Assembly (NCBI GenBank): GCA_008690995.1
Contig: VRMN01000001.1
Location: 5,084,001-5,148,000 of the forward strand
Direction of reading: 5' to 3'
From: Porphyridium purpureum
Taxonomy: Eukaryota > Rhodophyta > Bangiophyceae > Porphyridiales > Porphyridiaceae
DNA length: 64,000 nt
Each line of letters opens with the position of its first letter. The first letter of the stretch is position 1. The notes beneath the pieces were generated by a model that ran no database searches, was not told the origin of the DNA, and worked only from the letters and a program-made list of their open reading frames with translations. Below are positions 5,035 to 62,936 of this stretch, piece after piece. A program made the position numbers and the translations under genes.

Positions 5035-6612
5035 TTAGTTTAGAAAATTGTGCGGCGTGAATGGGGACGTATGTATATGGCTAAGTGGAGGACGCGGAGG
5101 CGGTCGAACATCCAGTGCCGCAGCCCGTGACCACGCCGGTTTCATAAGAGTAGAAGCTGGCACCGTGTCGAAACTTTGAATGGGCGGCAAACAAGGCATC
5201 CTTCCGAGTGTGTACGCAAAGGACACTCCGGTTGCCTGCCGCTTTTTGGCTGGGGTCACAAAGTCCGAATCATGGTCCTCCACATCAAGTATCGGCTCCG
5301 TATGAGGCGCTTTCGCGCCACGGTAAGAGCTGGATGCGTCCTTTGGAGCAACGGTACGAAACACATGGCTCTTTGATACAGAGCTGCGCAGTGGATCAGC
5401 ATGTGTTGAATTGCTTGGCGTGTAGCATTCCTCCATTGGGAATTTTTCACTCTCGTCCGAAACCAAGAACTGCCGGAGATGCTGCTGAAGCACTCGACAC
5501 GTTGATTTTGTGCTCTTACCGACCCAGATGCGGTGATTTCTGGACAACGAGGCGACCTGATCTCGTGTGAAATCGCCGGCATTCTCTTTTTCGTACAGGC
5601 GCTGCTTCGTGCGATTCTTGTACTCCTCAAAATTTGATTGTGGTTGCAGCAGGTACTCCAGCTCCCTCGGGTTCACGACAAGATTTAGGTAAACGTAATG
5701 CAGCGCGTCTTCTTCAAACGAGAATGAGTCGATGGAGCTGAACTTGATATCAATCGCGCCGTATGGACCACCCTTCTGCATCGCGGAGGCCAAGTCATCA
5801 CCCAGGAACAACTCATATCGCAGCTTGCGCCGCCCGAAAAGAAATTTGATTTCAAGCGTCGACCATTCCTTGTCGGCGAATGTTTGCACCAGTGATTCAC
5901 ACGCCCACTTGGAACCAATTGCGAGCTTTGTCCTGTGCAGAGACAGTGCCGCCGGTGTTTTGGAAGAAGAAGCACTGGACTGTTCGTCTATTCGCCATGC
6001 CTTTCGCTTACGCAGACTTTCAGATGGCGGCACAGCGGAGGCGGCATCGTGCACATGACTTTCGTTTTGGGAAGCGGTGTCTAATGGTAGGCTCGATGCT
6101 GAGTTCTTTTGGGCCTGAAATCGATGCGAATTTGCTTCGCTCGTTTTCACATTTGCACTGGGAGAGCCTGACCGCAGTGGAAAAGAGTCCTGTCTTTTTG
6201 CGGTGGACTCCAGAGTTGCATGACGACTGGGACTGTCTCCGACATCGCTGCGCGGCGTGTCGCTCCCTGTGCTGTCCGGTGAAGCTGCTTGACGCCTCAT
6301 GCGCACCTGCTTTGCGCGGCGGTTATTGAACCAGGTCCGAACTTTTCGCAACGGCTTACCGAACGAAGCGGCAAGACTCTCAAGTTCGTCCTTCTTTGGA
6401 TAAGGGCAGGCTTCAAACAGGCGCGCCATTCCTTCCAGCTCGCTGGGCGAAAACTCGCTCGAGCCCTTCTTCAGTGACAAAGGCGCGTTCTCGACAGCCT
6501 CTGCCGCTCGAAGCATCCAGTCAATCACATTTTGCTCAGCCATGTGGATGTTTTCCTTGTTACTCTGTGAGAAAATGCCATAAGACGACGCCTTTCCGTG
6601 CTGCCTTTCCAT
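5035..6612 (-). CDS. Homeodomain transcription factor with an uncharacterised C-terminal domain
   Basis: A 525-residue protein from ATG 6612 (only a TTG lies further upstream in frame). A homeodomain occupies about residues 51-107: FSPSELEGMARLF, a typical three-helix spacing, and the recognition helix VRTWFNNRRAKQ with the invariant W, F, N and R. It has no extra three-residue TALE loop. A Ser/Thr-rich linker follows. Residues about 230-385 form a second folded region containing KWACESLVQTF, EIKFLFGRRKLRYELFLGDDL and VYLNLVVNPRELEYLL. This looks conserved and mixed alpha/beta, but I cannot name it. The C-terminus is Pro-rich. It probably acts in the nucleus as a DNA-binding regulator; the second domain may mediate dimerisation or cofactor binding. 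Confidence 0.85.
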   Translation of the reverse strand: MERQHGKASSYGIFSQSNKENIHMAEQNVIDWMLRAAEAVENAPLSLKKGSSEFSPSELEGMARLFEACPYPKKDELESLAASFGKPLRKVRTWFNNRRAKQVRMRRQAASPDSTGSDTPRSDVGDSPSRHATLESTAKRQDSFPLRSGSPSANVKTSEANSHRFQAQKNSASSLPLDTASQNESHVHDAASAVPPSESLRKRKAWRIDEQSSASSSKTPAALSLHRTKLAIGSKWACESLVQTFADKEWSTLEIKFLFGRRKLRYELFLGDDLASAMQKGGPYGAIDIKFSSIDSFSFEEDALHYVYLNLVVNPRELEYLLQPQSNFEEYKNRTKQRLYEKENAGDFTRDQVASLSRNHRIWVGKSTKSTCRVLQQHLRQFLVSDESEKFPMEECYTPSNSTHADPLRSSVSKSHVFRTVAPKDASSSYRGAKAPHTEPILDVEDHDSDFVTPAKKRQATGVSFAYTLGRMPCLPPIQSFDTVPASTLMKPAWSRAAALDVRPPPRPPLSHIHTSPFTPHNFLN

Positions 6613-7497
6613 GATCCGAGCGAGGCTCGTTTCTGCGCGTGCCTTTTTTCCTGCTGCTGTGCCGAGAACTTCCAAGCGGCGTCACGCGTGCGCGCGCCAC
6701 TCTGTTCGCCCGCCAAGTGCTCCCTTTATATCGGAGCGATGACGTTGACGCGGATGCCCGAGAAAATCCGCTCGCCCTTGAGAACTTATCTGTGCGCGTG
6801 CAACTCGACTTATCAAACTCAAACAAAACAGCACGTTTATACCCGCACTTCCCTGCGAAGAAACCACCTCTGCTCGCGAATCTGCTTTCGCTTTCCGCCA
6901 AGCTCCCCACCGTCCAAATCACCACCTGTTAAACCCCCACCATCCGTTTCCTTCTCTGTGTATTTGTATATATGCGTGTGTGTGTGTATTTGTAGCTCCG
7001 ACGCTTTCCACTTTCAAGCGAGCTTCACGACCCCGCTTTCGTTCTTCTCCTCTCCACTCCCCTCCCTCCCTCTCTCTGTCCCTCCGCGCCCTTCTTCTTC
7101 TCATCTCATACGGGTGTCCCTGTCTGCCTCCTTTTCCCGCTTTCCCTCCTTCTCCCGTCAACGCCCGCCAAAAATCCCCTCATAACAGAACGACCCCAGT
7201 TTAATACACACACACCCACACACCCTCTCACTCACCAACCCTCCTCATTTCAAAGGGGGGAGGGGGGGGCGGGGGGCGCGTATGAATGAATGCTGCTGGT
7301 TTTGCCTCGGCCTGCCACCACATCGGATCGCACGTCGCTTTGCGCTCGCTTTTGGGAAACACCCCACACTGCGTCTATAATTAGCGCGTGATTTTCTCAT
7401 AGCAAACCATCTCATATTCAAGGGGGGCGTGTGGGTTTTGGCGCGCGCAAGTGAAAAACAAGGTACACTGTATTTTTGTCCATGTGTACAGCGAGTA
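6613..7497. promoter_or_regulatory. Upstream region of the homeodomain gene; low-complexity DNA
   Basis: No gene is supported. The segment holds a GT/TATG repeat near 6970-6992, a long pyrimidine-rich + strand tract (about 7030-7165), a CA repeat near 7205-7225 and a pure G tract at 7255-7276. The pyrimidine tract is typical of core promoters and leader sequences in compact algal genomes. Confidence 0.45.
7255..7276 (+). repeat. G-run with quadruplex potential
   Basis: Three runs of six to eight G separated by single bases within 22 bp. There is enough G for an intramolecular G-quadruplex. It lies about 220 bp left of the DNA transposon. Confidence 0.7.
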
Positions 7498-12028: not shown

Positions 12029-15000
12029 TCAAGGAGCTTGAATAGTACCTGAGAACTGAGCGACCATAGCAAGCGTTTCACTGCGCACTTTTGGAGAGCA
12101 CTTGGCGTCTTCCACGATGTGCTTGAGCAAAGACGAAAGCCCAAGTCTTTCTCTCTGCTCAAAATCACGGATGCTTGTTATGGCTGATTCGCGAACATAG
12201 TAAATTTCGTACGCCATCGAGCGCTGGGCGTACGTACTGAGAAGCTCAAGTCTCGTTCTGTGAAGTGAAATGGCTGCGTCACCCAGCCCGCTCATGAGCG
12301 ACGAGGGATGGCTCTGCTGTGTTTGAGAACCCCGGCCAGGATATATTTTCTCGTACTTCTCCCTGACATGCTTCTCGCCCTCAAAACCCCGCGCAACCAG
12401 CCGGTCAAACTCCTCGAGACATCTATCAAAACTCATGGAGCCAACGTCCGACAGCTTCACGGAGTCTGGTAACACGAACAGTGGGGAGCTGAGCCGCTCG
12501 AGCAGTCCAGCAAACTGCGCTTGCAAGTCACGGATAGGATCAAGTAGGCGCGTCTCTTGCTCCAGAGTGATATGCCTGAGCGCCACGAAATCGTTCCACA
12601 GTAGATCGATTGGATACATGGGCAGCTGCACATCCATATGCCGCTGCGTGCCGCAGCTATTAGGAGTTGCAAGGAGCACGGCGTCCGGTCCGCTGATACC
12701 CCAACGCAGTACCTGGCGTTCCATGGTGAGAGCGTATATGATCTGATTAACAGGATCGTACGCTATACGGCTCGTGCTCAGCGTCATCTTTTTCATCTTC
12801 ACGCTTGCATGCCTCAGTTGCTTTGATTTACCTGCGGCAACACCGCCGATGGCGTGACTCTGGATTTTGAACGAGCGCTTGAGCACGGTGCGCTGCGAGC
12901 TGACCGGCGAGACGCGTAGCACCTCTACAGAACCGTGCGACCCACCAATCAGCAGCATATTAGCAGACGGGCACACAGTGCAGCGATTTAAAAAGTCGAT
13001 CGTACTTAGACAAAAGCCCTTTGACGACGTCGTCTCGCTGCCGCAGATGCTTCCGTCCACGCTGTTGAAACACGAAACCATCGAGCCTCTCTGTCCCGCG
13101 GATAATGTCACTACGACGCTACCTTCGAAAAGGAGCACGAGGCCGAGAAGGCTTGAAGCCGACACCAAAAACGTGCTCATTTCGCTCACCGCAATGTTCG
13201 AGCCTTGGTTCTCGACCCGCACGCAGCGCACGTAGCCGTCCGAATAGCCTATGCACACGGTGGACACGTGCGGTGTTGCCTCAATCCATGCACTGGCAAC
13301 GTGCTCAACACGTGCTGTCAGATGTTCCGCGCGCGGCAAAATCTGACAATGCGACTCGAAGCTCAATCTGCTCGCCATACTTGCAACGCCATGCGAGAAG
13401 CCCACCAAGAAAATGTCCGAATTCTCGCCCACGAAGCAGATACTTGTCACGCGTACGCCGTTAGCACGGTCCGCGTCCGACAAAAGGTCCACGCTACGGA
13501 TGCTGCCGCGTACCGTATTGACCGCATACACCGTACCCATACTAGATACAGCCCACAGCTCGTCTTCCAGCTGCAACATCATTCCGGCAACCAGCGATCC
13601 CTGTGGCTCAATTAGTATGTCCAGTATCCTCTGCTGCCCTCCACTGCTGTAGACCACCAAGGAGGTGCGCGACAGCACAACTACTTCGCCACGGTGAAAA
13701 TGCACGGCTACCAGTACCGGATCACTGTCCAGATCGGCCAGATTTGTCAATTGCGTGCTGCTCTGGCAAGACGGACGCGAAACCAGGTCGCGATTCTGGC
13801 GAGGCATGAGATTCCCGCCAACAGTACATGAGCTCCATCCACGCGCCAAATTCGAAGAAAACTCCCCGCCGCCTGCCGCTGTCATGCCGCGTCCACCGAC
13901 GGGAACCAACAGCGAACTGCGCATTATTGACGGGCCAGAGGCTCCAGATGCGCCGGAAAACTCCTCATGAGTGAGCAGCCTGCCTGTTTCATTCCGGCCG
14001 GTAAACTTGGTGTAAGTACGTGCGTATAATTCCGAATCGAAGTCGCTCGTTGCTGATGAACGTACACTGTCCGAGCAAGTAACGGCATGCTGAGGTCCAG
14101 GAATCTGCTTCGTCATGTGATTCAGCTCCTGCGGTTCCGAGCGAGGCGATAAAATAGACTTGCCTCGCGGACTGATCAAGCTATGTGGTGCCGCCCTTGA
14201 CACGGAGTGTTGATATTGTTTTGCACGATCAGTCACCGAGCGCTCCCCACCCTTTGCGTCCCTAGGGCTGAAGACCAAGACGGGAGCTGCTTCGACGCCG
14301 GTCTTTCGAGTGCGAGATCGATTCGGAATCGCTGTACCACTCCGTGACGTCGAGCTGTAGCGCTCTTGCGTTTTGCTTCTGGTCAATGAACGCTGTACAC
14401 TGTCCAGTTGTGGATCACTTTTGCCCTCTGCAAACGCGCTCGCCTCTTTTTTCTTCTTCATTTGATGCGTGTGGTCTTCATCATTCAGCTTGTCTTTGAG
14501 CGACAATTTGGACGTGTCCATTTGCGAACCCGTATTCACCTCTTGAACTTCCTTCGACGTCTCCGCACGCAATATGGTCGACGACGCAATGTACTGGCGC
14601 CCCCACATCCCAGAAAAATCAGAATCTTCAGGAGGCGGTTGCCTGGACGCTTGCGTATGACTCTTGCCAAGTTGCTTGCCGTACCGCTGGGATATGATCA
14701 AGTTCTGCACCGACCTCTCGGGCAGGCGGAAGGGATACCGAAGGCAGCGACATGTACTGCGCGCTGCGTGAAGGTCCTTCGAACTGAATGTTGCTTCGTT
14801 GGCCACCCGCACGTAGTCGGATAATCCAATTGAACTATCCCCGTTCGGTGGCTCAAAAGTTCTGGACACGCTTGCTGAAAGGCCGCCGAGCGCGTCAAAT
14901 TCAGATGCAGTAGTCATCACCGTGTCCACGCGTTCGCGAGAAAATGCTGCATTGCGCATGTCCTGCTCCAAAATGGGCTGATCCGACCCAAAGCTTCCTT

Positions 15001-18000
15001 TCTGCTGAAGTTGCGCTGAGTGCGTCGATTGCCGCATCAACGCCGCTTTGGGCGAATTATCAGAGGCCAGGAAGCCAGTGCCTGTTGCCTTTCTGCTGGC
15101 AATTTCATCCGCGCGTGGTGAAGTCAGCTTGTGCTTCCCCGGACGAGGAGACCAATTTGCCGTTACGGTTTCTTCGAGCACCCGCATTCGAACCTGCGTG
15201 CTCTCGATTGCGGCAGCTTGTCGCTTGCTCTCCTCTGCTTCCGGTGGTGAAACTAGAGTGTGAAATGGCTCCTTACTCCTTTTTTCATGCTTTTGTTGCG
15301 CCCTGGGTGACGCGACGCTCGTCGACAACACCACATGCTCGTCAGCGTCGAAGTCACGCAGCCCTGATTTAAAGTCAAAGTCGTCCAAGTCGCTAAAATC
15401 AAGCTCTTCTAGCCGAGCTATGGATTTCTTGGCCGCTTTTTTCTTCACAGCATGCGAGTCCCTTACCTTCATGTCTTTGACCTTTTTCTGGCGATGAGAG
15501 ACTGGCGCCACTTTTGGGCTCGAAGGCGGCAGTTCTGTTTCCCGCGGGCTCATGTTTTTTGGTGATGAAGACGAAAAGTGCACTGACGATGTACTGAGGC
15601 GCGAAGATTGTTTCTTCGTGCTTTCAACTGGTTTCTTGTTCCTCTCCAACAACGTGGATGAAGCTTCTGCATCTTCCATAGACGCCGTACCCGTCTGAAT
15701 CCCAATCGATGCAAATTGCTTCGCTACTCTACGTCCTTGCACTCTCGCTGGTTCACTGTGATTCTCATGATCTGCCACTGTGCCTACTGATCTATGATCC
15801 GATTTTTCGTGTTTCGTGACGACAGATTCCTCCACCTCTGTCACCTCACCATCTCGCGAAAAGCTGATTGTTTCAGTGAAGATCTCCTCTTCCCTCTCTG
15901 CCGCCGCCATGTCACTCAGCAACTCCATTTCAACGACCGGCAAATTCAAAAACTCCGTCATTTCTCGTGCCAAGCCAGGCAATACAATGGCTCTCCGTTC
16001 TTCTGGCCGGAAAGCAACTTCGCCTTCTTTCGATTCGTCCAAACTCAAGGTTTCAGCCATTTGGTCTTCAATCTCCGACTGCTCATCAGACTCTGTCGGA
16101 ATCAGAAACTCCTGACAGATCTCTGCATCGTAAAAGGATGCTGCTCGACTTGAAGACACCTGAAAATCGCTGCCACTATTTTTGGTTTCATCCGATCTTC
16201 CTCTGAGATTGCTCCAGGTATCCGCGTTTGATCCTGCACTGGAGTGTGTCTCAGAAGCAAACTCCTCCTCAAGGCGAGCGCCCGGCTCCACGTTCTCCGT
16301 ACGTGCAAAGACTGCTTCAAACTCCATAACATCAACCAACTCCTCAACTTCTTTCAAAACTTCTTCAAACGGAACGGACGTTGGTCGGCTTACGCCGTTT
16401 GCACCGACGACCAGATCATCCTCCTCCACAACTTTAACATAGGGTTCCTCTTTTCCGTCTTTGACAATTGAAGCGTTTTCATCCCCGGCCAGCTCATTCA
16501 AGTGCTCAACAACTGAAAGCCCTTCTGGGCTCGATCCTTCACTTGCCGCGTCGCGCCACGCAGACAAAATGCTTTCCGCATCGCGCGTTGATGCCCCTGG
16601 CGACGGAGAAGAGACTTCACGCTGAAGAACCTGAAACTGGAGCGCTGGATCGGGACAATGTATGTTGTGATCAATCTGTAAAGTTTGAATCCATAAATCA
16701 AAGTTCGACTCTGTGCGCGTCCGTTCCAGACCTCCTTCTGCTCTAAGGCCATTCTCCATGGTGATCAAAGTACGCCACGCGAGCAATTCTTCCGGCTCCT
16801 TCTCGTGCGCCTCCAAAACAAGAGGATCCATACTTTCACCTGATACGTGAGCCTCTGTGTGGGCATTAAGATCTTCAAGCACACCGTCAACCCACTTGAT
16901 ATATTCACGCTCAAAGTGGGAATCGCAGGCGTCCGCTGCCGGCTCTCTCGGTACCCGATGTGAGATCGGACAAGTGTCCGAAGTGGCCATGGCATCCAGC
17001 CACAATGCGTACAGAGCCCGCGACAGTTCATCATTGCACAAGGCTATTCGCTGGGCTTCGCGGTCCATATGTAGCCACCGGTCATACGAAGGCTGCGGGA
17101 AGTCTGCCAAGTGCTCTTTTTCTTTCTCGCGCACACTGAGATTCTCGTGAATACCGATCGCAGCCGCGCGTACGAGAACACCTTGCACATCTGCCGTATA
17201 GGCTGGTGGCCACGGATCCCAGTCTCCGTTCTTCTGCAGCAAACATCCATTGAGGAGAAGATCTATGTCATTCAACCATATTCGCGCTTCAAAGCTGAAC
17301 TTGTCATCACCAGCAGCTCCTTCAATTTCAGCATTCAAGCCGGTTTCTATATTTCCATCCAAATTACGCCATTGCCGGTAAATGCTAGGCCCACGCGATA
17401 AATCCATTCCCTCGTCATGCAGCCGTTTTGTGGCAATGCTGTTCGCGGCACGAGCGTGCAGCTGCAGATCTTCGGTGAGATTGCAAATGTGGTTAAGCCA
17501 TTGCAGCATATCTACTTCGCGCGCCAACACGCTCGAGTTCCAGCTCATCGCAGTCCACTCTTTAACCAGCCGGGCTGTCTCCGCGTCCTCTGCGTCCGTG
17601 GCTGCGCCACAAGCCACCTTGCTCCACTCGTCAAAGTGTATCGTGCAAATATCTCGCCGCACATGTACCACAGGGCTCGGTTTCGCCGACGCAATGTTCA
17701 ACCCACCACCAGTTTCTCCCGCGGCGAGATAGCGTATTCTCTCGTCGTTCACGTGCTGTTCCCATCGGTCTGAGCGGAAGCCGCGTTCACGGGCCAAACT
17801 TGGAGAAACGCTCGAGAGCCACCATGCAAGCATAGACTCTAAAGTAGCTCCGGCAGACTCATTCGACATCCAAGTGAGCGTACTGGCCCACAAGTCGTAC
17901 AGCTTGGACACAACCTTTGGCTCTTCAGAATCATCAAAGGTAAAATCTCGACAGGTACCAGCGCTTGCTTCCTCACACCCCTTCCATTCAATCAAGAGAC

Positions 18001-20497
18001 GAGATGCTAATTCCCCATTTCGTTGTTCATTCACGGCTTCACCGAGCGGCACACCTTTCAAACCAGGCGTGCCGCGCAGTGGCCATTGAATACGGTCTGC
18101 GATCGATGCATTTTGCTCAAGCTCAGCTGCAGCTCTGCCGAGATGCCTCACAAAGCCTTGCCCACGCGCCACCGCATCCTGCGGGATTTCGCTCCATGCA
18201 GACTGCGCAACGCGGGCCGGCCATGAGAGAGGTGATGAAGCGCAAAATAATAAAAGTGCATGTGTTTCTTGCCAGAGCGAAACAAGCTGGTCCGAGCTTA
18301 ACACCTTGTCTTCAGGCAACATTAAAAAATGAACATCTTCGTCGCCAACAATTTGCTTTCCATCATCAGCAACCTGAAGTTCCTCGCAAAGCCTTTCACA
18401 AGGCGCAACCATGCATTCCTTCCAACGTCGCACAAGCGCGTCCGCATGCACACAGGTGTCGGCTCCGTGCCCCTCCAAAGCATTGAAAGGCTCTCCCTTC
18501 GAAATATGCGTGCGTCGCTTCCGTGCCGGGAATGCGTCAACCGTCTTTGTCCATTCGGCCAGCCACTGGCGACAAATCTCGGCGCGCAACCACAATAGGT
18601 GTGCACGCTGTGCAACTTCTGCCCACTCTGCATATTGAACAACTGTCTCCTCCGGATCAAAGTCAATGCGACTTAACGCAATAGGCGCCAATGCACACCC
18701 GTTCGAAAGCATGCCTGCCTGTTTCTTCTCTTGGTCCAGCACGCGGCGCCGCTCGGCACGTAGATACTCTTCCCACTTGTCCACAAAGAAGCCGCACTCC
18801 GTCGCGAGACTGGGCCGGACACTGGACAACCACCATGCGAATGCGGACAGACTTGTGGATTTCCATGAAGGCGCACTATCACCCGACACCCATTTCAAGG
18901 TGTTCATCCACAGGTCATACGAGTCACTGTCGACAGAATCTCGCTTTTCTTGTGAGCCGCCATAAGCAATGAGCTGGACCTCAGGCTCCATACTTTCGCA
19001 TCGTCCCCACGCGCTCAGCAATCGGGTTACCGCAGCAATAGACTCTTCGACTCCTTCCACAGGTTCCTCTGGCTTGCGGGTCTTTGACAGTGACAAGGGC
19101 GGCCACTGTATACTGTCTGCCAAGTGCGTGCTGCGCTCAATTTCGACTGCTCCTCGACCAGCAGCAGAACTCGAGGGTCGATGATGTTCTTGCTGTGTCC
19201 AACATCGCACCTCATCGTCCCCCGAAGGGAAAACGGTATCTTGAGATGTCAGCTTCCAAGCGGATAATAAATAATTTGATAAAGCGCCACGATCTCCTAC
19301 CTCTTTCAAAGTGTCTGACAAAGACCTGATGCAGGGGGTGAATCGAATGCTCACAGTACTTGCTCTTTCCGTCCAGTCAACCGAGTGAAACACACGGTTC
19401 GTACTGCTCCTGCCTGTGGCCACACATCGACAAAGGCTGGCATGTAATTTGCCTCGCTGCAGTCGTCATGCCTCGAACCGGCCAGTTCTCTTCCACGCCC
19501 GCTCATAGTCACTTCATGGTTCTCACGGTCAAACGGGACATCCACCGCGTACGCTCGCCATTCATCCATCCAGCGCTGAGCGATACCTGCTCGTAGCCAG
19601 AGAAGAAACGAGCTAAGTGCATGTTGGACCCACTCAGCGTACAAACGCGTCGTCTCCGGAATCAACTAACACGTCGGCATCGCCTTTCGCCGTGCTCTCG
19701 CTCGTCGGAACCGACGCATCGCTTTCGACGCCCACGCTTGCAGCGCCTGCGGAAGCTTCGTGAGCATCCTGGAGCTCACACAGGCAATCATACCATTGAT
19801 GCGCATTGAATCCGTCGGATTTCTGCAGGTCAGCATCCACGCTCGACAGCCACCACGCAAGCAGTGAGCTGGATATGACAGGAGTCGCATGCGCGCGTGA
19901 ATTCAACAAGTATGTCAGAGCGTTCGCCCATAAGTCATGATCAGCAGCCATCGGGTCATTATTAGCTCTAGAGGAAGCCGATAGTGCCTCAGCTCCTATC
20001 GACGGCGAGAGGACCGTGTTGCTCATATCAATCCACTCTCGATGAAGGCAGAGTAGGAGCTGCTCTGCCTCTTCGGGACTGCTTTGACTTTCTAATGGAT
20101 GAGAATTTACAGATGACGACGTGGCCGCCGCGAATGGCCACTGAAAAGTATCTGTCTCGTTTGCCTTCCGCTGCAATTGCAATGCCGCGCGATCATGCGG
20201 TTCAGTATCCGCCCACCACAGTTCCTCACTTGCGGGATTACTCCCCAACACGGTCAAAACTGCAGGACCTTGCATCGCTCGCCTGGCTCTGTCTAGCCAG
20301 CCCATGAGTGCTTCATCCGCACTCAAGCCCAAGTCGCTTTCACGTACTGCAGCAGGCAGCTCGCACTGCTGATGCCGCTGCCGCTGAACGTGCGATTGGC
20401 GGCTCGCCATGGTGCGATTCCACTCGTGCAGCCACCCAGCACATATCGCTTGCCTCAGCGTCGCCGCTTGTGTTCGATCTCCGCTGTCGCTTGCCAT
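12029..20497 (-). CDS. Giant Trp-rich repeat protein with beta-propeller-like C-terminus
   Basis: The start is ATG 20497, directly preceded by an in-frame TAA two codons upstream. The N-terminal third contains three tandem units of about 340 residues. Each carries an xxIQWP/FQWP motif (near 20135, 19110, 18090), an LxxxW...LW...LxW stretch and a striking AWWLSSV motif followed by GF...W (near 19850, 18835, 17825). More degenerate Trp-rich segments continue to about 16500. A long Ser-, Glu- and Lys-rich disordered middle follows. From about 13800 down to 12600 the sequence has repeated beta-strand blocks typical of a WD40-like propeller, then a helical end. The frame changes twice, at about 19634-19680 (+1) and within 19351-19423. 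Repeat homology continues across both, so these are small introns or sequence indels, not gene boundaries. I do not recognise the family; a scaffold role is only a guess. Confidence 0.7.
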
Positions 20498-47834: not shown

Positions 47835-49410
47835 GCTGACCGCCTGTGACTCCCTTTCCCTCTCCTTCCTTACCACTCTCCACCTGTCCAACCCCTTCAC
47901 ACCGCCCTGATCGCCGAAACCCGCACGCACCGGCTGCCCACGCGCCCGGACTCGCGCCAGCACGTTCGCCAAATCAAATCGACACAGTACCTCCTCGCTG
48001 TACACAACCAACTGTACTCTTTAAGGACAGTGAACGCGTGGAATTTTAGGGTTCCGCCCCGAGAGACGCCGTAGGGTTTTGAGTACAAAACCCTAGAAAG
48101 TTCTATGATGAAAGATTGTTCGAGAAGCGTGATGATCTCGGACCTGCGAAATGTTTGTCATTGTCGTTTTGTGTGGCCTTGTGCAAAGGTCAAAGGCCGG
48201 CCGAAGCTTCTGGATTCGTTCTTGACGCGCCCTCCCGGCCATTTTTCGGATACGTGGCCGGCTGTGGTTGCGAGTTGTGGAACGAATCAAAACCTGTGGT
48301 GGAAATTCGTCCTGTTGGAGAAATTTGTTCTCCCGTCCTTGCTGGAAAGAGCAAGGACGAAGGGTATAAAAGGACGAAGGGGCAAGCTGGTTCCCAGGAA
48401 TTTCCAGGTCAAGGTAGAAGAAGAGGTAAGGGCAAATAGAATAAAAAGAGAATTGGTTAGTTGGATTGAGGCAGTCGTTGGAAGACTTGGGTTGGATTTG
48501 CGGGAGAGGCACGCTAGCGTGTTGTGCGAGCGGATATCGGTCTGGAGTGTTTTTAAAAAGGCAGCTGGGGTTTAAACGTACCTTCCATCACCCTTCACTT
48601 GTCAAGACCGGTCCACTCCCTCTCGTAGTCCTCTATAAGTTGAATTTTCTGTCCTCTCTTCCTTTCTAGCCACTTTTCTCTGATTGTCCTGCTTGTCCTT
48701 CCGTTCGTTTCGGTGTGTCGGTTCGTCGTCGGTTTGTCAGTTTCCGGGGTGTGGCGGTTTCCAGTTCCTGTTATCGGTGAAGCGGTCCGGTTTTGTTGAT
48801 TCGGTTACAAAGCAGAGAGGGAGAAATTCCAAGGAACGGACAGCACAGGTACAGTACCAGTCCACGAGGGGAGTACAGCTGCAAGCTGGCTGAGGCGGCT
48901 GTCTGTCTGTCTGTTTGTCGGTCTGTTTATTTATTGGTTTGGGTGTTTGCAGGTGCATAGTGGTTGTGTGTGATGATCTGGTGTTTATTTATACACAGGG
49001 ATGTCTATTTCTGGTCGGATTTTCTCAAGGGTTTGTGTGTCACTGTCTGCAAGTGTGCGCGTGCGCGCAAGATTACTAGTGGGCCAGTTCATCAACGCCT
49101 AAAAGAAAATAAGGGCGGACCGGAATCGCGACAGGAAAGGAAAAGAGCGATCGAGCGAAAATCGGGGAAGGAGGAGGGAGAAGAGAGGGAAAAGGAAGAG
49201 ACAAGAACGGAACGCGGAGGAGGGAGGTGGGTCGGACGAGCGCCGATCGCGCATTGAGGAAGGCACGGGAGGAAGCGGGCTGCGTCGTGTAAGAGCGGTA
49301 GAGGAGGAGGGGCTGCGCGGGAAGGGGGTTGCGCGCGCAGAGGCGGCTGCTGGGCCGGCCGGGGAGCGGTGCGACGCACGGCAGTTTGCGCGTCGTCGAA
49401 ACGCGTCGGC
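47835..49410. promoter_or_regulatory. Divergent promoter, HECT ligase / CAP-N array
   Basis: 1.6 kb, the longest gap in the right half. On the left are TTAGGGTT at 48046-48053 and the hairpin 48072-48095 with two telo-boxes. A 156-codon ORF at 48105-48575 (+) lacks any recognisable domain and I do not call it. The right side (48900-49300) is TG/GT-rich then purine-rich (GAGG/GGAA) before the CAP-N gene start. Confidence 0.45.
48072..48095. promoter_or_regulatory. Palindrome built from two telo-boxes
   Basis: TAGGGTTTTG, four bases, CAAAACCCTA: a perfect 10-bp inverted repeat made of two head-to-head telo-box motifs. It lies 238 bp upstream of the HECT ligase ATG. Confidence 0.6.
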
Positions 49411-52293
49411 ATGAGCGCGCCGCACTTGGCGGAATTCGCCCAGCTGGTCTCCGGGCCAGTGGGCGAGTACGTGGCAGCGTCTGGCGCGATTGGTGGCATC
49501 GTGCAGCAGCAGGCACAACTGGTCAAGCAGGCGTTTGAAAAGGAGTATGCCTTTTTGCTCGAGGCGGCAAAGATGCAGAAGCCCTCGGATGACGAGGTGG
49601 GCAAGATGATTGCGCCCATTGGCGAAATCATGGGCAGCATCCAGAAGATCGCCGCCGACACGCCGCCCAGTGACGAATTCTTTAACCACGTCTCGGCGTG
49701 GTCCGAGTCGATCCCGGCGCTCGGATGGGTAATGGCCGAGTCGAAGCCAGTGCCTTTTGTCGCTGATTTTGAAGGTGCCGGTGAATTCTACACGTCCAAG
49801 TTGCTGATGAAGTTCAAGGGCACCGAGAACGCCAAGGCGCACCAAGCATGGGTTCGGGCTGTCAAGGCTGTGTACGAAGCGCTCAAGGCGTACATCAAAT
49901 CGTTCCACACGACAAAACTCACATGGAACCTCGGCTTGGACGCCAGTGCCGGCGCCTCCGGCGCGGGTGCCGGAGACGAGGATGATGACGAGGAAGAAGA
50001 TGCCGGCGGCGCTGACCCCATCTCGGCGTTTCAACAGATCATTGATGGCCCGGTAAAGAATTACGTGGCCGCGAGCGCCAAAATCGGTACCCCGGTCCAA
50101 TCGCAGGCAACATTCGTGCTTGAAGCGTTTGAGAAGGAGCTCGAGTTTCTCAAGACCGCGGCCAAGACGGCCAAGCCCGCGGACGGCGGGCAGTCCATGG
50201 TGGGTGATGTGGGCGCTTGCATGGGCAAAGTCGGCGAGTTTGCGAGCAGCGTGGGCCCGCGAGAACCTCTTTTTAACCACGTCAGTGTTATTGCCGAAAG
50301 CGTGAGCATTCTTGGTTGGGTTGTGGTGCCTAGCGGCGTGATAGCGTATATGTCCGATTGCGAAGGCGCGGGCGACTTTTATGTGACCAAGGTGCAAGTG
50401 GCCGCAAAAAAAGCGGAGAACGGTGCCAAGGAACTGGAATGGGTGGCCACCGTGAAGGAAATGTACACAGCGCTCAAGGCGTACGTCAAGGAGCATTTTA
50501 CCACTGGTCTGACATGGAATTTTGCAAGTGCGCCTAAGCCCAAGAAGGTGAAGAAACCCAAAGCCGCGGCAGTGGATGACGATGACGGAGACGCGGATGG
50601 CCCTGATGCATTTTCAGCGTTCCAGAGCATCGTGGACGGTCCTCTAGCAGCTTACGTTTCCGCGAGCAAGACGCTCGGTGGCGAAGTCGAGAAACAGGCC
50701 GAGGCTTACAAGAAAGCGTGGCTCGCGGAAGTTGAATTTTTGAAGAAGGCCGGAAGCATGGCGAAGCCTGCTGACGGCGGACAGTCGATGGTGGCAGAGG
50801 TGGGCGCGGAAATGGGCAAGGTAATGGAGATCGTCGGCGCGATCGGCCCCCGCGAGCCATTCTTTAATCATTGCACAGCGATTTCCGAGAGTGTGAACGT
50901 ACTCGCGTGGGTTGTGGTGGACAGTAAGCCGCTGCCCTTCATTTCCGACGCAGAAGGTGCCGGTGAGTTTTATTTGTCAAAGGTGATGATGACGTACAAG
51001 AAGGCGGATGACGGCGCGCCCCACATGGAGTGGGTCAACACGGTCAAGGCCCTGTACGCAGCACTCAAGGCGTACGTCAAGGATTACCATATGACCGCCC
51101 TCACGTGGAATTTCATGACAAACAAGCCCAAGAAGGCCAAGGCTGGTGGAGCGAAAAGGGCGTCGTCGTCGTCGTCCTCTTCTGCGTCGCTGGAGGAATT
51201 CAAAGCACTGGTGGAAGGGCCGGTCAAGGCGACGTATGGAGGTTTGTCCTTACAAATTGGTGGCCAGGTAGCCGAGCAGGCGAAGATTGTGATCGAGGCG
51301 TTCGAGAAGCAATTGGTTTTTCTGACGCAGGCCGCCAGCATGGCCAAACCTTCCAGTCAGGACGGTATCATGTCGATGTTGCGTGAGACGGGCCAGTGCA
51401 TTGGCCGTATCCAGGACATTCAGAACGCCATCCACCCGCGCGACGCGGAAGCTAATCACGTGACTGCGATCGGGGAGTCCATTCCGGCGCTGAGCTGGGT
51501 CGTCATGGAGTCCAAACCGGTGCCCTTTATTACAGAGATGGAGGGCGCAGGCGACTTTTACCTCAACAAGGTTCTTATGGATGCGAAAAAGTTGGATAAC
51601 GTGAAAGTTCATCAGGAATGGGTAAGGTCAGTGCGCGGAATCTTTGCCGCGCTGAAGAAATTTGTGAAAGACCATCATACGACATGCTTGGTGTGGAATA
51701 CGGGCGCCGGTGGAGGGGGCGCTGTCGCTGCGGGTGATGCAGAGGATGCAATGGAATCGTCTGCTGCTGGTGGCGACTCAATCAGCGACTTTGAGGCTCT
51801 ATTGGTTGGACCGCTGCAAAAGTTCTTGGATCTGTCCAAGAGCATCGGCTCGTTTGTAGAGGAGCAAGCGGTGCAGTACGCTGAGGTGTGGAAGAAGGAG
51901 CTCGACTTTCTCAAGAGCGCATCAAGCATGAAGAAGCCGGCGGACGACGAGGTTCAAGCCATGATGACGCCCATCGGGCTGGCCATGGCGGAGGTGAACA
52001 ACATCAAGGACAAGGCACCGCCTCGAGACGAGCTTGTGAATCATCTAACTGCGATGGCGGAATCCGTTCCAGCACTTGGTTGGGTTGCGCTAGACTCCAA
52101 GCCCATTCCGTACGTAGCAGATATGGCCGGAGCCGGCGAAATGTATCTCAACCGAGTGCTGCAGGCGTTCAAGACGAAAGATGATGCGCAGCTACACAAG
52201 GACTGGGTCGCAACCGTCAAGACTTTGTATGAGGAGCTCAAAAAGTATATCAAGGCACACCACACAACGTCCTTGCAATGGGGCAGCAAGTGA
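49411..52293 (+). CDS. Five tandem cyclase-associated-protein N-terminal domains
   Basis: 960 residues from ATG 49411 (the upstream GTG is ignored). The protein is five copies of the CAP N-terminal helical domain at about residues 3-170, 204-370, 401-568, 594-763 and 791-960. Each has the family landmarks: a FxxxxxGPxxxY opening, a QAxxVxxAFEKExxFLxxA helix, NHVSAxxESxPALGWV, the PxPFxxDxEGAGxFYxxKV strand-helix, and the closing HHTTxLxW. Linkers are Asp/Glu-, Lys-Pro-Ala-, Ser- or Gly/Ala-rich. In yeast and animal CAP a single such domain binds cofilin-actin and promotes actin filament severing. Canonical CAP also has a proline-rich region, WH2 motifs and a C-terminal beta-helix (CARP) for nucleotide exchange; none is seen here. 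Copies 2 and 3 are most alike. Confidence 0.93.
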   Translation: MSAPHLAEFAQLVSGPVGEYVAASGAIGGIVQQQAQLVKQAFEKEYAFLLEAAKMQKPSDDEVGKMIAPIGEIMGSIQKIAADTPPSDEFFNHVSAWSESIPALGWVMAESKPVPFVADFEGAGEFYTSKLLMKFKGTENAKAHQAWVRAVKAVYEALKAYIKSFHTTKLTWNLGLDASAGASGAGAGDEDDDEEEDAGGADPISAFQQIIDGPVKNYVAASAKIGTPVQSQATFVLEAFEKELEFLKTAAKTAKPADGGQSMVGDVGACMGKVGEFASSVGPREPLFNHVSVIAESVSILGWVVVPSGVIAYMSDCEGAGDFYVTKVQVAAKKAENGAKELEWVATVKEMYTALKAYVKEHFTTGLTWNFASAPKPKKVKKPKAAAVDDDDGDADGPDAFSAFQSIVDGPLAAYVSASKTLGGEVEKQAEAYKKAWLAEVEFLKKAGSMAKPADGGQSMVAEVGAEMGKVMEIVGAIGPREPFFNHCTAISESVNVLAWVVVDSKPLPFISDAEGAGEFYLSKVMMTYKKADDGAPHMEWVNTVKALYAALKAYVKDYHMTALTWNFMTNKPKKAKAGGAKRASSSSSSSASLEEFKALVEGPVKATYGGLSLQIGGQVAEQAKIVIEAFEKQLVFLTQAASMAKPSSQDGIMSMLRETGQCIGRIQDIQNAIHPRDAEANHVTAIGESIPALSWVVMESKPVPFITEMEGAGDFYLNKVLMDAKKLDNVKVHQEWVRSVRGIFAALKKFVKDHHTTCLVWNTGAGGGGAVAAGDAEDAMESSAAGGDSISDFEALLVGPLQKFLDLSKSIGSFVEEQAVQYAEVWKKELDFLKSASSMKKPADDEVQAMMTPIGLAMAEVNNIKDKAPPRDELVNHLTAMAESVPALGWVALDSKPIPYVADMAGAGEMYLNRVLQAFKTKDDAQLHKDWVATVKTLYEELKKYIKAHHTTSLQWGSK

Positions 52294-52505
52294 AATAAAG
52301 ACAAGAAATTAGGGTAGAGAAAGCTCGCCCCTTGAGAGCGCTCGCCCTTTTCCACGCTCGCGCAACCACGACGGTTGGCGCTCGCAGGGCTCCGCGCAAA
52401 CAGGCGCAAGAGTGAGTCGAACAACACGATTCAGAAAGCTCTTCTTTGCTTTACACTGCAGCGTCCCGAGCGCCATACCGTAAATATATTCTTCATCCGC
52501 TCGAT

Positions 52506-52997
52506 TTACGCGGCGAATAGGCCAGACGCGTAGTGTTCCTGAACGAAAGAACGGATCTTCTTGATGATTGACTCCACTGCATCAGCAAACTCGGCATGCA
52601 CGGGGTCACTGCGAACCGACTTTTCCCGCAGCGCGGCGATTCCGGACTCCATGGAGAGCAGCGCATTGTCACAGCACGCCACAGGCTCCGGGTCATTTAC
52701 CCAACAGAAAGCCGCCACGGCGTCCCCGAGCAGCAGGATATGCAGCTCTAGCAAGTCGTTCTTAGACACGCCGTCCCTAACTTCGGTGACGAGCTCTATG
52801 CTTCCTTCCAACGTCCCGAACGCGGTCTCAAGATCCAGCACAGGTTTGCCTCCGTATTCGGCTACCACCTTGATCATTTCCTCGACCGAGCTCTGAAAAC
52901 CTTTAACACTCGGCTGCATGCGCAATCCCAGCCGCTCGCTCGTCGTGTCCAGCCTTTTCATATCCGCCGCAAGGCTTGCCTTCAGAGCTTCTGCCAT
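52506..52997 (-). CDS. Single divergent CAP N-domain-like protein
   Basis: 163 residues from ATG 52997 (upstream TTG rejected). After a basic start, a helix-rich domain follows with features aligned to CAP-N but eroded: SVKGFQSSVEEMIKVVAEYGGKP in place of the GP...IGG opening, LLLGDAVAAFCWVNDPEPVA in place of NHLSAxxESIPALGWVxxxPxP, and the end SFVQEHYASGLF in place of YVKxHHTTGLxW. It lies tail-to-tail with the five-domain gene, 212 bp apart. Most likely it is a diverged paralogue from the same family, perhaps binding a different actin partner. The match is by pattern and order; identity is low. Confidence 0.6.
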   Translation of the reverse strand: MAEALKASLAADMKRLDTTSERLGLRMQPSVKGFQSSVEEMIKVVAEYGGKPVLDLETAFGTLEGSIELVTEVRDGVSKNDLLELHILLLGDAVAAFCWVNDPEPVACCDNALLSMESGIAALREKSVRSDPVHAEFADAVESIIKKIRSFVQEHYASGLFAA

Positions 52998-59082: not shown

Positions 59083-62000
59083 TTACGGTTCCTCCCTTTG
59101 CTCATAATTTTCATAGTCGCCCGTGCCGTTATACAGTCCAGGCATGTTGAGCGGATCCTTATTGCCGTCCTTGAACGCACGGTCGCCGCCGGCGCCATCC
59201 CAAGCCTCGTACAAGGCCGAGTTCTTGAACACGCCATTCATTTCGATACCACCATCGTTGTAGTGCGTGGCCTTGGCCTTGAGCGGCGGCGGCTTTTCGC
59301 CGCCGAGCTTGGACGGCTTGGCACGCGCTTCTTCGCGCAGCTTGCGCATTTTCAGGTACCACCACAACGAGAAGACCGCTGCGGTCAATAGTGTGATCAC
59401 GAGAATGATGGCACCAATCCAGCCAAGACCATTCTCAATGCCTGGTTGCATGTAAGGCACGGAAACAAGCCCAAACACAGTCATCAGCTTGATAAGGATG
59501 TTCATCGAAGGTCCGCTCGTATCCTTGAAAGGATCGCCCACTGTGTCACCCGCCACCGTTGCCTTGTGCCACTGCGAACCCTTCGCGTGCCTCTTGCCAA
59601 AGAAGCCAGACTCAACCAGCTTCTTCGCATTGTCCCAAGCGCCACCGGCGTTCGACATCAAAATTCCGAGCATGTATCCTGAGCCAATGGCCCCGAGCAG
59701 CAGCCCGATCAGCGCGCGCTGCCCAAAGCCAAAGCCAATGATCAGTGGACTCATAATCGCGGTGAGGCCAGGAAGCGCCATCTCGAAGAGGGCCGCGGTG
59801 GTCGCGATCTTCACGCATTTTACATGGTCAGGGCGTACGCCAGACATCCCTTCACGCAAGCCCCGGATATCGCGGAACTGGCGGCGTACCTCCACAATCA
59901 TGGCCTGTGCCGCACGCGACACGGCAAGCATTGTAAGCGCGCCAAACAGGAACGGAAGCATGATGCCCACGAACACGGATCCCACCACGTAAATGTCGAC
60001 AAGGTCTACCACGTCGCGTGCGGATACAAGCACCTGAGGCTGAATACCCGGCGCCGCAACCAGCTGACGTGGATTCGGCGCCAGACCAGAGTCCTGCGCG
60101 AGTGCAGAAAGTAGGGCATAGGCGGTCAGAATAGCCGACCCATTGCTGAATCCCTTGCCAGTTGCTGCAGTCGTATTGCCAAGCGCGTCCAGCGCGTCCG
60201 TTGTGTCGCGCACCGATGATGGCATTTCAGCCATCTCGGCAATTCCGCCCGCGTTATCAGCGACGGGGCCGTATGCATCAGTGGCCATCGTTACACCAAG
60301 CGTGCTTAACATACCAACGGCTGACAACGCAATGGCGTACGAACCGAACAAGTTGTATGACCCAATGATCACCGCGACAACAAGAGCAAGAGGAAGCACT
60401 GTCGAAAGCATTCCAACGCCCAGACCCTGGATGACTACAGCGCCCGCACCGTACTCACCTGAGGATGCGATACCTTGCGTGGGGCCGTACGTCCCGGCAG
60501 TGAAAAACTCGGTCAAGTAGCCAATAATCATACCCAAGTACAGCCCAATCAAGATCGCGATAAACAGGCGCCACGAAATTTCATTTGCCGACGGGTACAC
60601 AAACGCGAGAGTCGCGTCCCACGGCCTGTAATTGGTCAGAACAGGGAGCAGACGGGGCAGAGTCGATCCGGGGAGAGGAGCACATGTGTCTGTTTCAGGA
60701 AGAATCCAGGCGGGCAAGTTGGCCTCCTTAAAGCCAACCTGGTCTGCAAACGTGCCCTGGTCGAAAAGCCCAAAGCAAAGACCGGCCGCCCCACCAATCA
60801 CCAGAATCGACGAAATAAATACGTTCAGTCGCAAGGAGTTCAGCAGCGATTCCATTACGTCTCCCTTGCCCTTGCCTTCTCCCGAAACGCTCTTCGGTAC
60901 GTGAACATACACCGTGCAGATCACGCCTACGATGACGCCCACCATCGCAAGCATAAATGGCAGAGCGATGAACATGGACAGCGATCCGTACACACCGCTT
61001 GACGGATAGTACGTGTACAGTGGTCTGGCACCCAATCCGAGAGTCGGAGAAATTGGGGCTGCGCAAATCGTGTTCGCGATAGACACCAAGAACGGTGGAT
61101 TTGTGGGCGACCCGCACTCCGCGTCGATGATCAAGTGCTGAAACACGCACATCGCGTAAGGGTTATCGAAAAAGTAGGGCAGTCCTGCTGCCAAAATGAC
61201 TGCTGCTACAATGGAGCCAACAAAGGACTCGAACAGATCAGCGCCCATACCCGCCACATCCCCAACATTGTCACCCACATTATCCGCAATTGTGGCTGGG
61301 TTTCGGGGATCATCCTCAGGGATATCTGACTCGACCTTGCCGACCAAGTCGGCGCCGACGTCGGCGGCCTTGGTGTAGATTCCGCCGCCCACGCGAGCAA
61401 ACAGCGCAATGGTAGAGGCCCCGGCGGAAAAGCCAGAGAGAGCACGCACATCGCGGAAAATCAGGTACACGATCGACAAACCCGCGATACCAATCGACAC
61501 GACGGAAAGGCCCATCACAGCACCTGCGCGGAACGCCACGTTTAAGCCTTGGGACAGGCCATTCGCCGCCGCAGCGGCTGTGCGCACATTCCCGCGCGTG
61601 GCCATGCTCATGCCAACGTAGCCCGTCACGTACGACAGAATAGCACCGATTGCGTAGCTACCCCCAAGACGCCAGTTGATGCCCAGGCCGGCGAGCAACA
61701 ACAACCCGAGCCACAGAACTAAAAGAGGAATAAGCTCGGCGATCAAAAACGCCTGCGCGCCCTCTCGAATGTACGTCGCAATTTCCACCATTCGCGGTGT
61801 GCCGACGTCCTGCCTCAAGACCGAGAACGCATAAAGACAAATGACCACCAGCCCGAATGCTCCGGCTGTCATGGCCGCCCACACGTACACCGTGGGCACA
61901 TAGAACAGAAAGGTGTCATAAGTATAGAATCCCGGCTGCGATGAAACATCGATGATCTGATTACACAGCTCGACGTCGCCAGCCTTGAGATCGCAGCGCG

Positions 62001-62325
62001 CAATGAATGCGAGAACCACCACAAACGCAATAAACGCACAGATGAAAAAGAGCGCTGCGACTAGCAGCGGGATACTGTTGTGCGCCTTGTCCTTGAGCAT
62101 GGACTCATCCACCACATGCTCACCTGCCTCCAGCGCGGGAAAGTCCGCGGGCGCGACCACCTCATACCCCTTGTACACCTTATCCCTCGGCACGTACCCA
62201 AACGGCATCGTCTCCTCCACGGGCCCTTGCTTCTCCGGCGCGCGCACTTGCACCGGCGGCTTCGCGCCGCCGGTCGGCGGCTTCCCTGCCGGAGGCATTC
62301 CCCCCGCAGGTGGCTTCGACGCCAT
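59083..62325 (-). CDS. K+-type membrane H+-pyrophosphatase (V-PPase)
   Basis: 1,080 residues from ATG 62325. It pumps protons using PPi, normally at the vacuolar or acidocalcisome membrane. The catalytic motif [11 protein letters not shown], then [45 protein letters not shown] and [13 protein letters not shown] are all present. The GNTTAA segment, with Ala after GNTT, is the signature of K+-dependent (type I) enzymes. About 16 helices fit. It is longer than the usual 760-810 residues because of a Pro/Gly/Lys-rich cytosolic N-terminus (~55 residues), a loop enlarged between helices (about residues 395-440 and 535-570) and a C-terminal tail of about 70 residues. The tail includes [15 protein letters not shown]. 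Divergent from the phosphate transporter. Confidence 0.95.
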
Positions 62326-62936
62326 TCCAACCCCCTGTTCGCCCTTTCTCCCCAACCCCCACACCACTCCTCCCCTCCCCTACTGCCCCACCCCCACCCC
62401 GCACTTAGTTCGTCCCCCTCTCTAGCACGGGCGTGTGCACTCGCTTCTACTTTCATACAAAAACACCGAGTTCCTATCAAAGCGTGCGATTTCACTATAC
62501 ACCACCGGTCTATTTCGGGTGTACTCACCAACAGAGACCAAAAGACCAAAAAGACTCAAAGAAAACGCGCCTTGTGAGCCTCTGCTTTATCCTCCTTACT
62601 ACTCGCACTGGCACGCTGGATAAGGATGAACCGAGACGCCAGCCAAGGTCTATGAAAACATGCTCGTTTACCTATGAATCTGGAAAAATAGCGGAGCGTT
62701 CAACATGAACTGAGCGTGCCGAGTTGTAGTAGTGTCACAACAATCACCGACAATAACAAGTAGTGTTAGTATGATCGCTACATGGTCATAGTTAAAATAA
62801 AGCTGTTCAATAAGGCAAAAGAGCAGTTCCCATTCTAAAATAGATCGCGTGCGTAGCCACACTGCGGAATTTCGAAAATCGAAACGGGCCGCGGACCCTG
62901 TTTCTAACCAGTACTCATGGTTAGAATGAGGGTTTC
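62326..62936. promoter_or_regulatory. Divergent promoter, H+-pyrophosphatase / phosphate transporter
   Basis: 611 bp. Pyrimidine-rich on + next to the pyrophosphatase start. A perfect dyad at 62902-62926 ends 10 bp before the transporter ATG. No gene. Confidence 0.55.
62902..62926. promoter_or_regulatory. Dyad next to the phosphate-transporter start
   Basis: TTCTAACCA, seven bases, TGGTTAGAA. The perfect 9-bp arms could form a hairpin in the 5' leader or bind a dimeric factor. Confidence 0.45.

Follow-up and report, generated by a model that had tools for sequence, protein, structure and literature searches.

Organisation of the locus

The window, by which the whole stretch of 64,000 nucleotides analysed here is meant, carries on its forward strand an open reading frame (ORF) of 960 stop-free codons, which runs from an ATG at 49411 to a TGA at 52291-52293, just where the sequence-only reading of this DNA had placed it. 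Its predicted product (49411-52293, + strand; 960 aa, 102.8 kDa, pI 5.3) is an array of five tandem CAP_N/HFD domains (CAP, cyclase-associated protein; HFD, helical folded domain), referred to below as D1 to D5. The nearest upstream in-frame stop lies at 49255, and the ATG at 49411 is the only one in frame after it. At the C-terminus, D5 is followed by three residues, the stop codon and the short motif AATAAA (52294-52299, + strand), which may be used as a poly(A) signal. A chance origin of the frame is ruled out by its probability, about 1e-16 under a naive composition model, together with the Pfam CAP_N matches described below. On the opposite strand, a 465-aa ORF (49099-50496, - strand) lies antisense to D1-D2; it has no Pfam match at E 0.01 and probably stays open only as a side effect of coding sequence rich in GC.

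Downstream, 212 nt beyond the stop codon of the array and tail-to-tail with it, lies a convergent ORF, S6 (52506-52997, - strand; 163 aa from its ATG), which encodes a single, very divergent CAP_N-like protein. The remaining genes of the window, whose GC content is 56%, include those for a PAP/fibrillin protein, a triose-phosphate-transporter-like protein, an H+-pyrophosphatase, a Pex2/12 protein and a HECT protein. From this gene content the window is eukaryotic and its host is probably plastid-bearing; the genome is probably that of an alga. At gathering scores, no Rfam family matches the window. Further ORFs on the reverse strand are one of 2464 aa (12029-19423) with no Pfam match at E 0.001, one of 546 aa with a homeodomain (5035-6675) and that of the H+-pyrophosphatase (59083-62367; 1094 aa), which has 170 residues before and 126 after its Pfam match.

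Identity and fold of the five domains

The identity of the array is given by the Pfam family PF21938 (CAP_N; profile length 159, curated cut-off 27 bits), which matches the whole protein in five stretches with an E-value of 2.3e-207. The sequence-only reading had described five CAP N-domains and nothing else, and had proposed a profile comparison of each fifth with CAP_N; run with PF21938, this comparison bears the description out. All five copies cover profile positions 1-159 (E 7e-36 to 4e-46), and CAP_N is the only Pfam domain type above its own cut-off in the 960-aa protein. In order along the + strand, the copies are D1 (49423-49926, residues 5-172; 151.3 bits, E 3e-44), D2 (50020-50517, residues 204-369; 124.1 bits, E 7.1e-36), D3 (50611-51108, residues 401-566; 131.3 bits, E 4.5e-38), D4 (51187-51696, residues 593-762; 143.5 bits, E 7.5e-42) and D5 (51781-52281, residues 791-957; 157.4 bits, E 4.1e-46). 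They are joined by four linkers of 26-31 residues that are mutually dissimilar. Linker 1 (49927-50019; 31 aa) is Gly/Ala-rich and then acidic, with 11 acidic and no basic residues; linker 2 (50518-50610; 31 aa) is half basic and then half acidic; linker 3 (51109-51186; 26 aa) is Lys-rich and then has a Ser run; and linker 4 (51697-51780; 28 aa) consists of Gly, Ala and Ser with five acidic residues.

Comparison of the whole array with PDB sequences leads to the same family: five of the seven matches listed are N-domains of CAP1 and of Dictyostelium CAP (E 2.6e-34 to 7.4e-27), with two weak hits (E 0.05 and 0.84) making up the rest. NCBIfam has no match for either the array or S6. The two sequence landmarks that had been described as kept in each copy are kept in part. 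For the first, given as NH...ES.PALGWV, the pattern NH.....ES...L.WV is invariant in all five copies, and PALGWV occurs exactly in D1 and D5 only; for the second, T.L.W is invariant throughout, and the full HHTT.L.W is found in D4 and D5 only.

The fold was modelled for one copy, D5, with its four sister copies serving as the alignment. The model has a mean pLDDT of 83, with residues 106-112 below 50, and all ten PDB chains that it matches with E<0.001 are CAP N-domains (query-normalised TM 0.85-0.88), including the mouse CAP1 HFD 6rsw with a TM of 0.87-0.88. According to this model, D5 has the all-helical HFD fold of CAP1.

S6 would be a far more distant relative, one that the sequence-only reading had missed. 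Its PF21938 score of 32 bits (E 1.5e-7) is just above the cut-off of 27, its identity to the five copies is 13-18%, and a sequence search of the PDB returns no CAP chain at E 10. The S6 model (pLDDT 73) has as its ten best PDB matches the N-domains of CAP1 and Dictyostelium CAP, seven of them below E 0.001, with a query-normalised TM of 0.70-0.81 to CAP N-domains; since D1-D5 were part of the alignment that guided it, this fold match is not independent.

Divergence and constraint of the copies

The five copies are 40-55% identical to one another in protein sequence, D2 and D3 being 55% identical, and 51-60% identical in DNA. Between copies, dN is 0.40-0.65, and dS is at least 1.38 or saturated in all ten pairs. 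A repeat search of the window finds direct repeats with a spacing of 588-594 nt and 62-76% identity; Tandem Repeats Finder reports no array, a result that is uninformative, as its longest period is 500 nt and the unit measures about 590 nt. The high or saturated dS and the low DNA identity together exclude a recent or artefactual multiplication, so that the array is established as old. The low level of amino-acid change relative to synonymous change indicates constraint at the protein level, which agrees, in all ten pairs, with the view of the sequence-only reading that all five copies look selected, although the salt-bridge residues discussed below are not kept in D1-D4. At third codon positions, the copies have a GC fraction of 0.67-0.76 and five other genes of the window, taken as a yardstick, one of 0.61-0.68, two ranges that overlap, with that of the copies lying partly above.

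Tandem arrays are error-prone in assembly, and a single domain might have been multiplied in this way. An artefact of that kind would have left near-identical copies, whereas these share only 51-60% of their bases, the longest exact run common to any two is 20 nt and all four linkers are different, which leaves this explanation with almost no probability. Stuttering of the assembly is likewise ruled out by the divergence between the copies.

In a small tree of the five copies, S6, mouse and Dictyostelium, the last two group apart (100/99) and S6 forms a very long branch. Among the copies, the only supported grouping is that of D2 and D3, with moderate support (84/97), below the star threshold of the tool.

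Actin-contact residues

In mouse CAP1, the contacts of the HFD with actin are reported to involve Phe162/Tyr163, mutation of which disrupted binding, and salt bridges from Arg118/Glu119 (PMC6876575). Alignment of the copies with the mouse and Dictyostelium CAP sequences, using mouse numbering, gives a divided picture. The Tyr163 position is kept in all five copies and that of Phe162 in four, with FY in D1-D4 and MY in D5. At the Arg118/Glu119 positions, D1-D4 have AA, AS, VG and QN, respectively, and D5 has KD, a conservative replacement; Dictyostelium has RD. The PRE/PRD motif of D2-D5 was considered as the counterpart of this pair and rejected, as the alignment places other residues there. 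Judged by aligned residues, then, the copies retain the aromatic contact and have largely lost that made by salt bridges; this partial retention of the actin-contact residues is shown by the alignment. For the Arg118/Glu119 pair, family-wide universality is unsourced, and its loss would therefore say more about actin binding than about CAP_N membership. In S6 the pattern is the reverse, with SG at the FY position and RD at the salt-bridge positions that D1-D4 have lost.

Over the domain as a whole, identity of the copies is 29-40% with mouse CAP1 and 27-36% with Dictyostelium CAP. Within bounds chosen by the analysts, the stretch most like mouse is 128-170 (identity 0.46), ahead of 171-207 (0.39) and 42-127 (0.26). 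When the domain is divided into nine 20-residue segments, identity to mouse ranges from 0.15 to 0.53, the minimum falling at 102-121, around Arg118/Glu119, and the maximum in the last segment, which has six residues only. The segment 162-181, which starts with FY, has a value of 0.37; since this is mid-range among the nine, the FY region as a whole is not specially conserved. Of the 69 residues that mouse and Dictyostelium share, D1 keeps 39, D2 28, D3 32, D4 31, D5 40 and S6 12. By this count the end copies, D1 and D5, are the most canonical and the middle copies, D2-D4, are more diverged.

These patterns bear on the possibility that the array is a scaffold, its CAP_N domains having been co-opted to contact proteins other than actin, with an actin site that is a mere remnant. 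The lower retention of shared residues in D2-D4 than in D1 and D5 would fit such a role, as would the lost salt-bridge residues of D1-D4 and the complete loss of FY in the neighbouring S6. The FY pair of D1-D4 argues against it, as does the better conservation of the 128-170 stretch than of those flanking it, subject to the chosen bounds, and a scaffold is accordingly regarded as rather improbable.

Parts of CAP that are missing

CAP proteins carry an oligomerisation segment of about 40 residues on the N-terminal side of the HFD (PMC7543520). Only four residues precede D1 as delimited, and this segment is therefore absent from the array. Neither WH2 nor CARP (CAP_C) has a Pfam match in the 960-aa protein at E 0.1, and no PPPPPP run is present; a loose WH2-core pattern matches once, inside D3, where the sequence is that of CAP_N. 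Across the window, CAP_C was found in none of the 29 ORFs scanned among the 78 listed with 150 aa or more, nor in two shorter ORFs near the array.

An alternative is that the five domains are a fragment of a gene model, a single exon from some longer CAP with its oligomerisation or CARP exons located at other places. Splicing is possible, the basis here being DNA alone. The limits of the ORF speak against this, however, with an in-frame stop at 49255, a single in-frame ATG at 49411, an AATAAA immediately after the stop and merely 212 nt before the convergent S6 ORF, as does the lack of CAP_C among the 29 ORFs scanned. Several genes of the window, moreover, have near-complete Pfam domains within one ORF, among them the H+-pyrophosphatase (profile positions 2-644 of 645) and a UPF0014 protein (3-237 of 242). 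A fragment is thus considered very unlikely, and the architecture, of a domain that is itself well known, is taken as real.

Possible function of the array

The published mechanism of CAP offers a frame for this architecture. In single-filament work, strong acceleration by monomeric HFD is reported to require concentrations more than 20-fold above those of oligomeric N-CAP, GST-dimerised HFD is reported to be effective at a much lower concentration than the monomer, and two HFDs were proposed to bind the two terminal actins jointly (PMC6876575). This two-CAP model was without structural confirmation as of 2024 (PMC11390976). In another study, N-CAP activity was reported as proportional to the oligomer number, although tetramers surpassed monomers by a factor of only nearly 2 (PMC6888645), and hexameric Srv2 was described as staying for about 2 s and removing about 100 subunits per event (PMC6876572).

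By analogy, the array may be a CAP-derived, covalent pentavalent N-CAP, whose domains would attach to the last actins of cofilin-coated pointed ends and make depolymerisation faster, a reading given an even chance on the basis of homology. Full-length CAP_N in every copy and the retained aromatic residues speak for it; the replaced Arg118/Glu119 positions of D1-D4, the Met of D5 at the Phe162 position and the mid-range identity to mouse of the segment starting with FY speak against it. The five actin-binding domains would be carried on one chain by flexible-looking linkers, with multivalency encoded covalently and not through a coiled coil at the N-terminus. The likeliest mode is that at least two of them would bind the last and the second-to-last actin subunits at a cofilin-decorated pointed end, and this binding would loosen the terminal subunit, leading to faster depolymerisation. 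Five HFDs on linkers of this length could provide avidity without a coiled coil, and the array, which lacks the N-terminal segment, may need no oligomerisation, although HFD-HFD contacts may occur. The sequence-only reading had suggested a pre-assembled multivalent factor, which fits the published rise of N-CAP activity with HFD number (PMC6888645, PMC6876575). Its further proposal of a severing enhancer is contested: enhanced severing is reported in PMC6888645, and earlier work cited in PMC6876572 gave a 4-8-fold enhancement, but in PMC6876575 N-CAP accelerated pointed-end depolymerisation with no significant gain in severing, and full-length CAP gave a modest one. As tetramers reportedly surpass monomers by so little (PMC6888645), linkage may bring only a small benefit.

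A function in actin dynamics is likely, judging by the domains present, but the array might instead hold back cofilin-actin monomers or serve as a tether for other partners. As a sequestering or scavenging protein, it would hold one cofilin-ADP-actin on each HFD, up to five monomers in all, and would buffer or cluster them for a separate CAP, with any action at pointed ends being secondary. That the array has no WH2 or CARP of its own is in keeping with this. Published HFD oligomers, in contrast, work at filament ends, and five equal sites are unlikely given that not all copies have retained the salt-bridge residues, which makes sequestration an unlikely main role.

Returning to a pentavalent N-CAP acting at pointed ends, an array without WH2 and CARP should not itself recharge actin with ATP, a step that would fall to profilin or to a separate CAP. 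It is possible, though somewhat doubtful, that the two jobs of CAP are split between proteins here, the array being a dedicated pointed-end depolymerase with non-equivalent domains and recharging being performed by another protein. Cofilin and profilin are listed for the red alga Cyanidioschyzon merolae (PMC7503314). For Porphyridium purpureum, a peptide assigned to 'Adenylyl cyclase-associated protein 2' contains a proline run (PMC10456242, Table 1), so this species appears to have a proline-containing CAP. None of five peptides chosen from the ten rows of that table, this one among them, occurs in the six frames of the window, a result that speaks neither for nor against this species as the host.

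Comparison with known systems and significance

With CAP/Srv2 (mouse CAP1, yeast Srv2 and Dictyostelium CAP) the array shares the full CAP_N/HFD, present in each copy. It differs in having five HFDs per chain where CAP/Srv2 has one, and in being devoid of the N-terminal oligomerisation segment, the proline-rich motifs, WH2 and CARP. A second comparison is with the engineered N-CAP oligomers, built with a coiled coil (PMC6888645) or as GST-dimerised HFD (PMC6876575), in which several HFDs are likewise joined and the CARP half is absent. These are assemblies of identical chains with a reported gain of activity with domain number, while the array, known from sequence, has five diverged domains on one chain. 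A third point of comparison is provided by apicomplexan CAPs that are CARP-only; Vitrella and a few genes of stramenopiles are described as showing a similar loss (PMC12713339, PMC4501334). Such CARP-only CAPs too are natural CAP-family proteins cut to part of the family architecture, but the array is their reciprocal, since they lack CAP_N and it has nothing else, in five copies.

A literature search by titles and abstract openings, with partial coverage, returned no description of tandem or CAP_N-only proteins. No relative of the array was matched in viral contigs (by protein and alignment) or in prokaryotic contigs (by alignment), a result that says nothing on other algae.

The array and the CARP-only CAPs together suggest that the two halves of CAP are separable in evolution in either direction. 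The array would be the natural counterpart of a multi-armed assembly that other cells obtain through the clustering of individual molecules. The number of HFDs needed at the pointed end has been addressed with artificial oligomers whose chains are all identical; the array offers a natural test within one gene. Red algae are reported to show actin-based migration without myosin II or Arp2/3 (PMC10846614); if the host is a red alga, filament disassembly could matter more in it.
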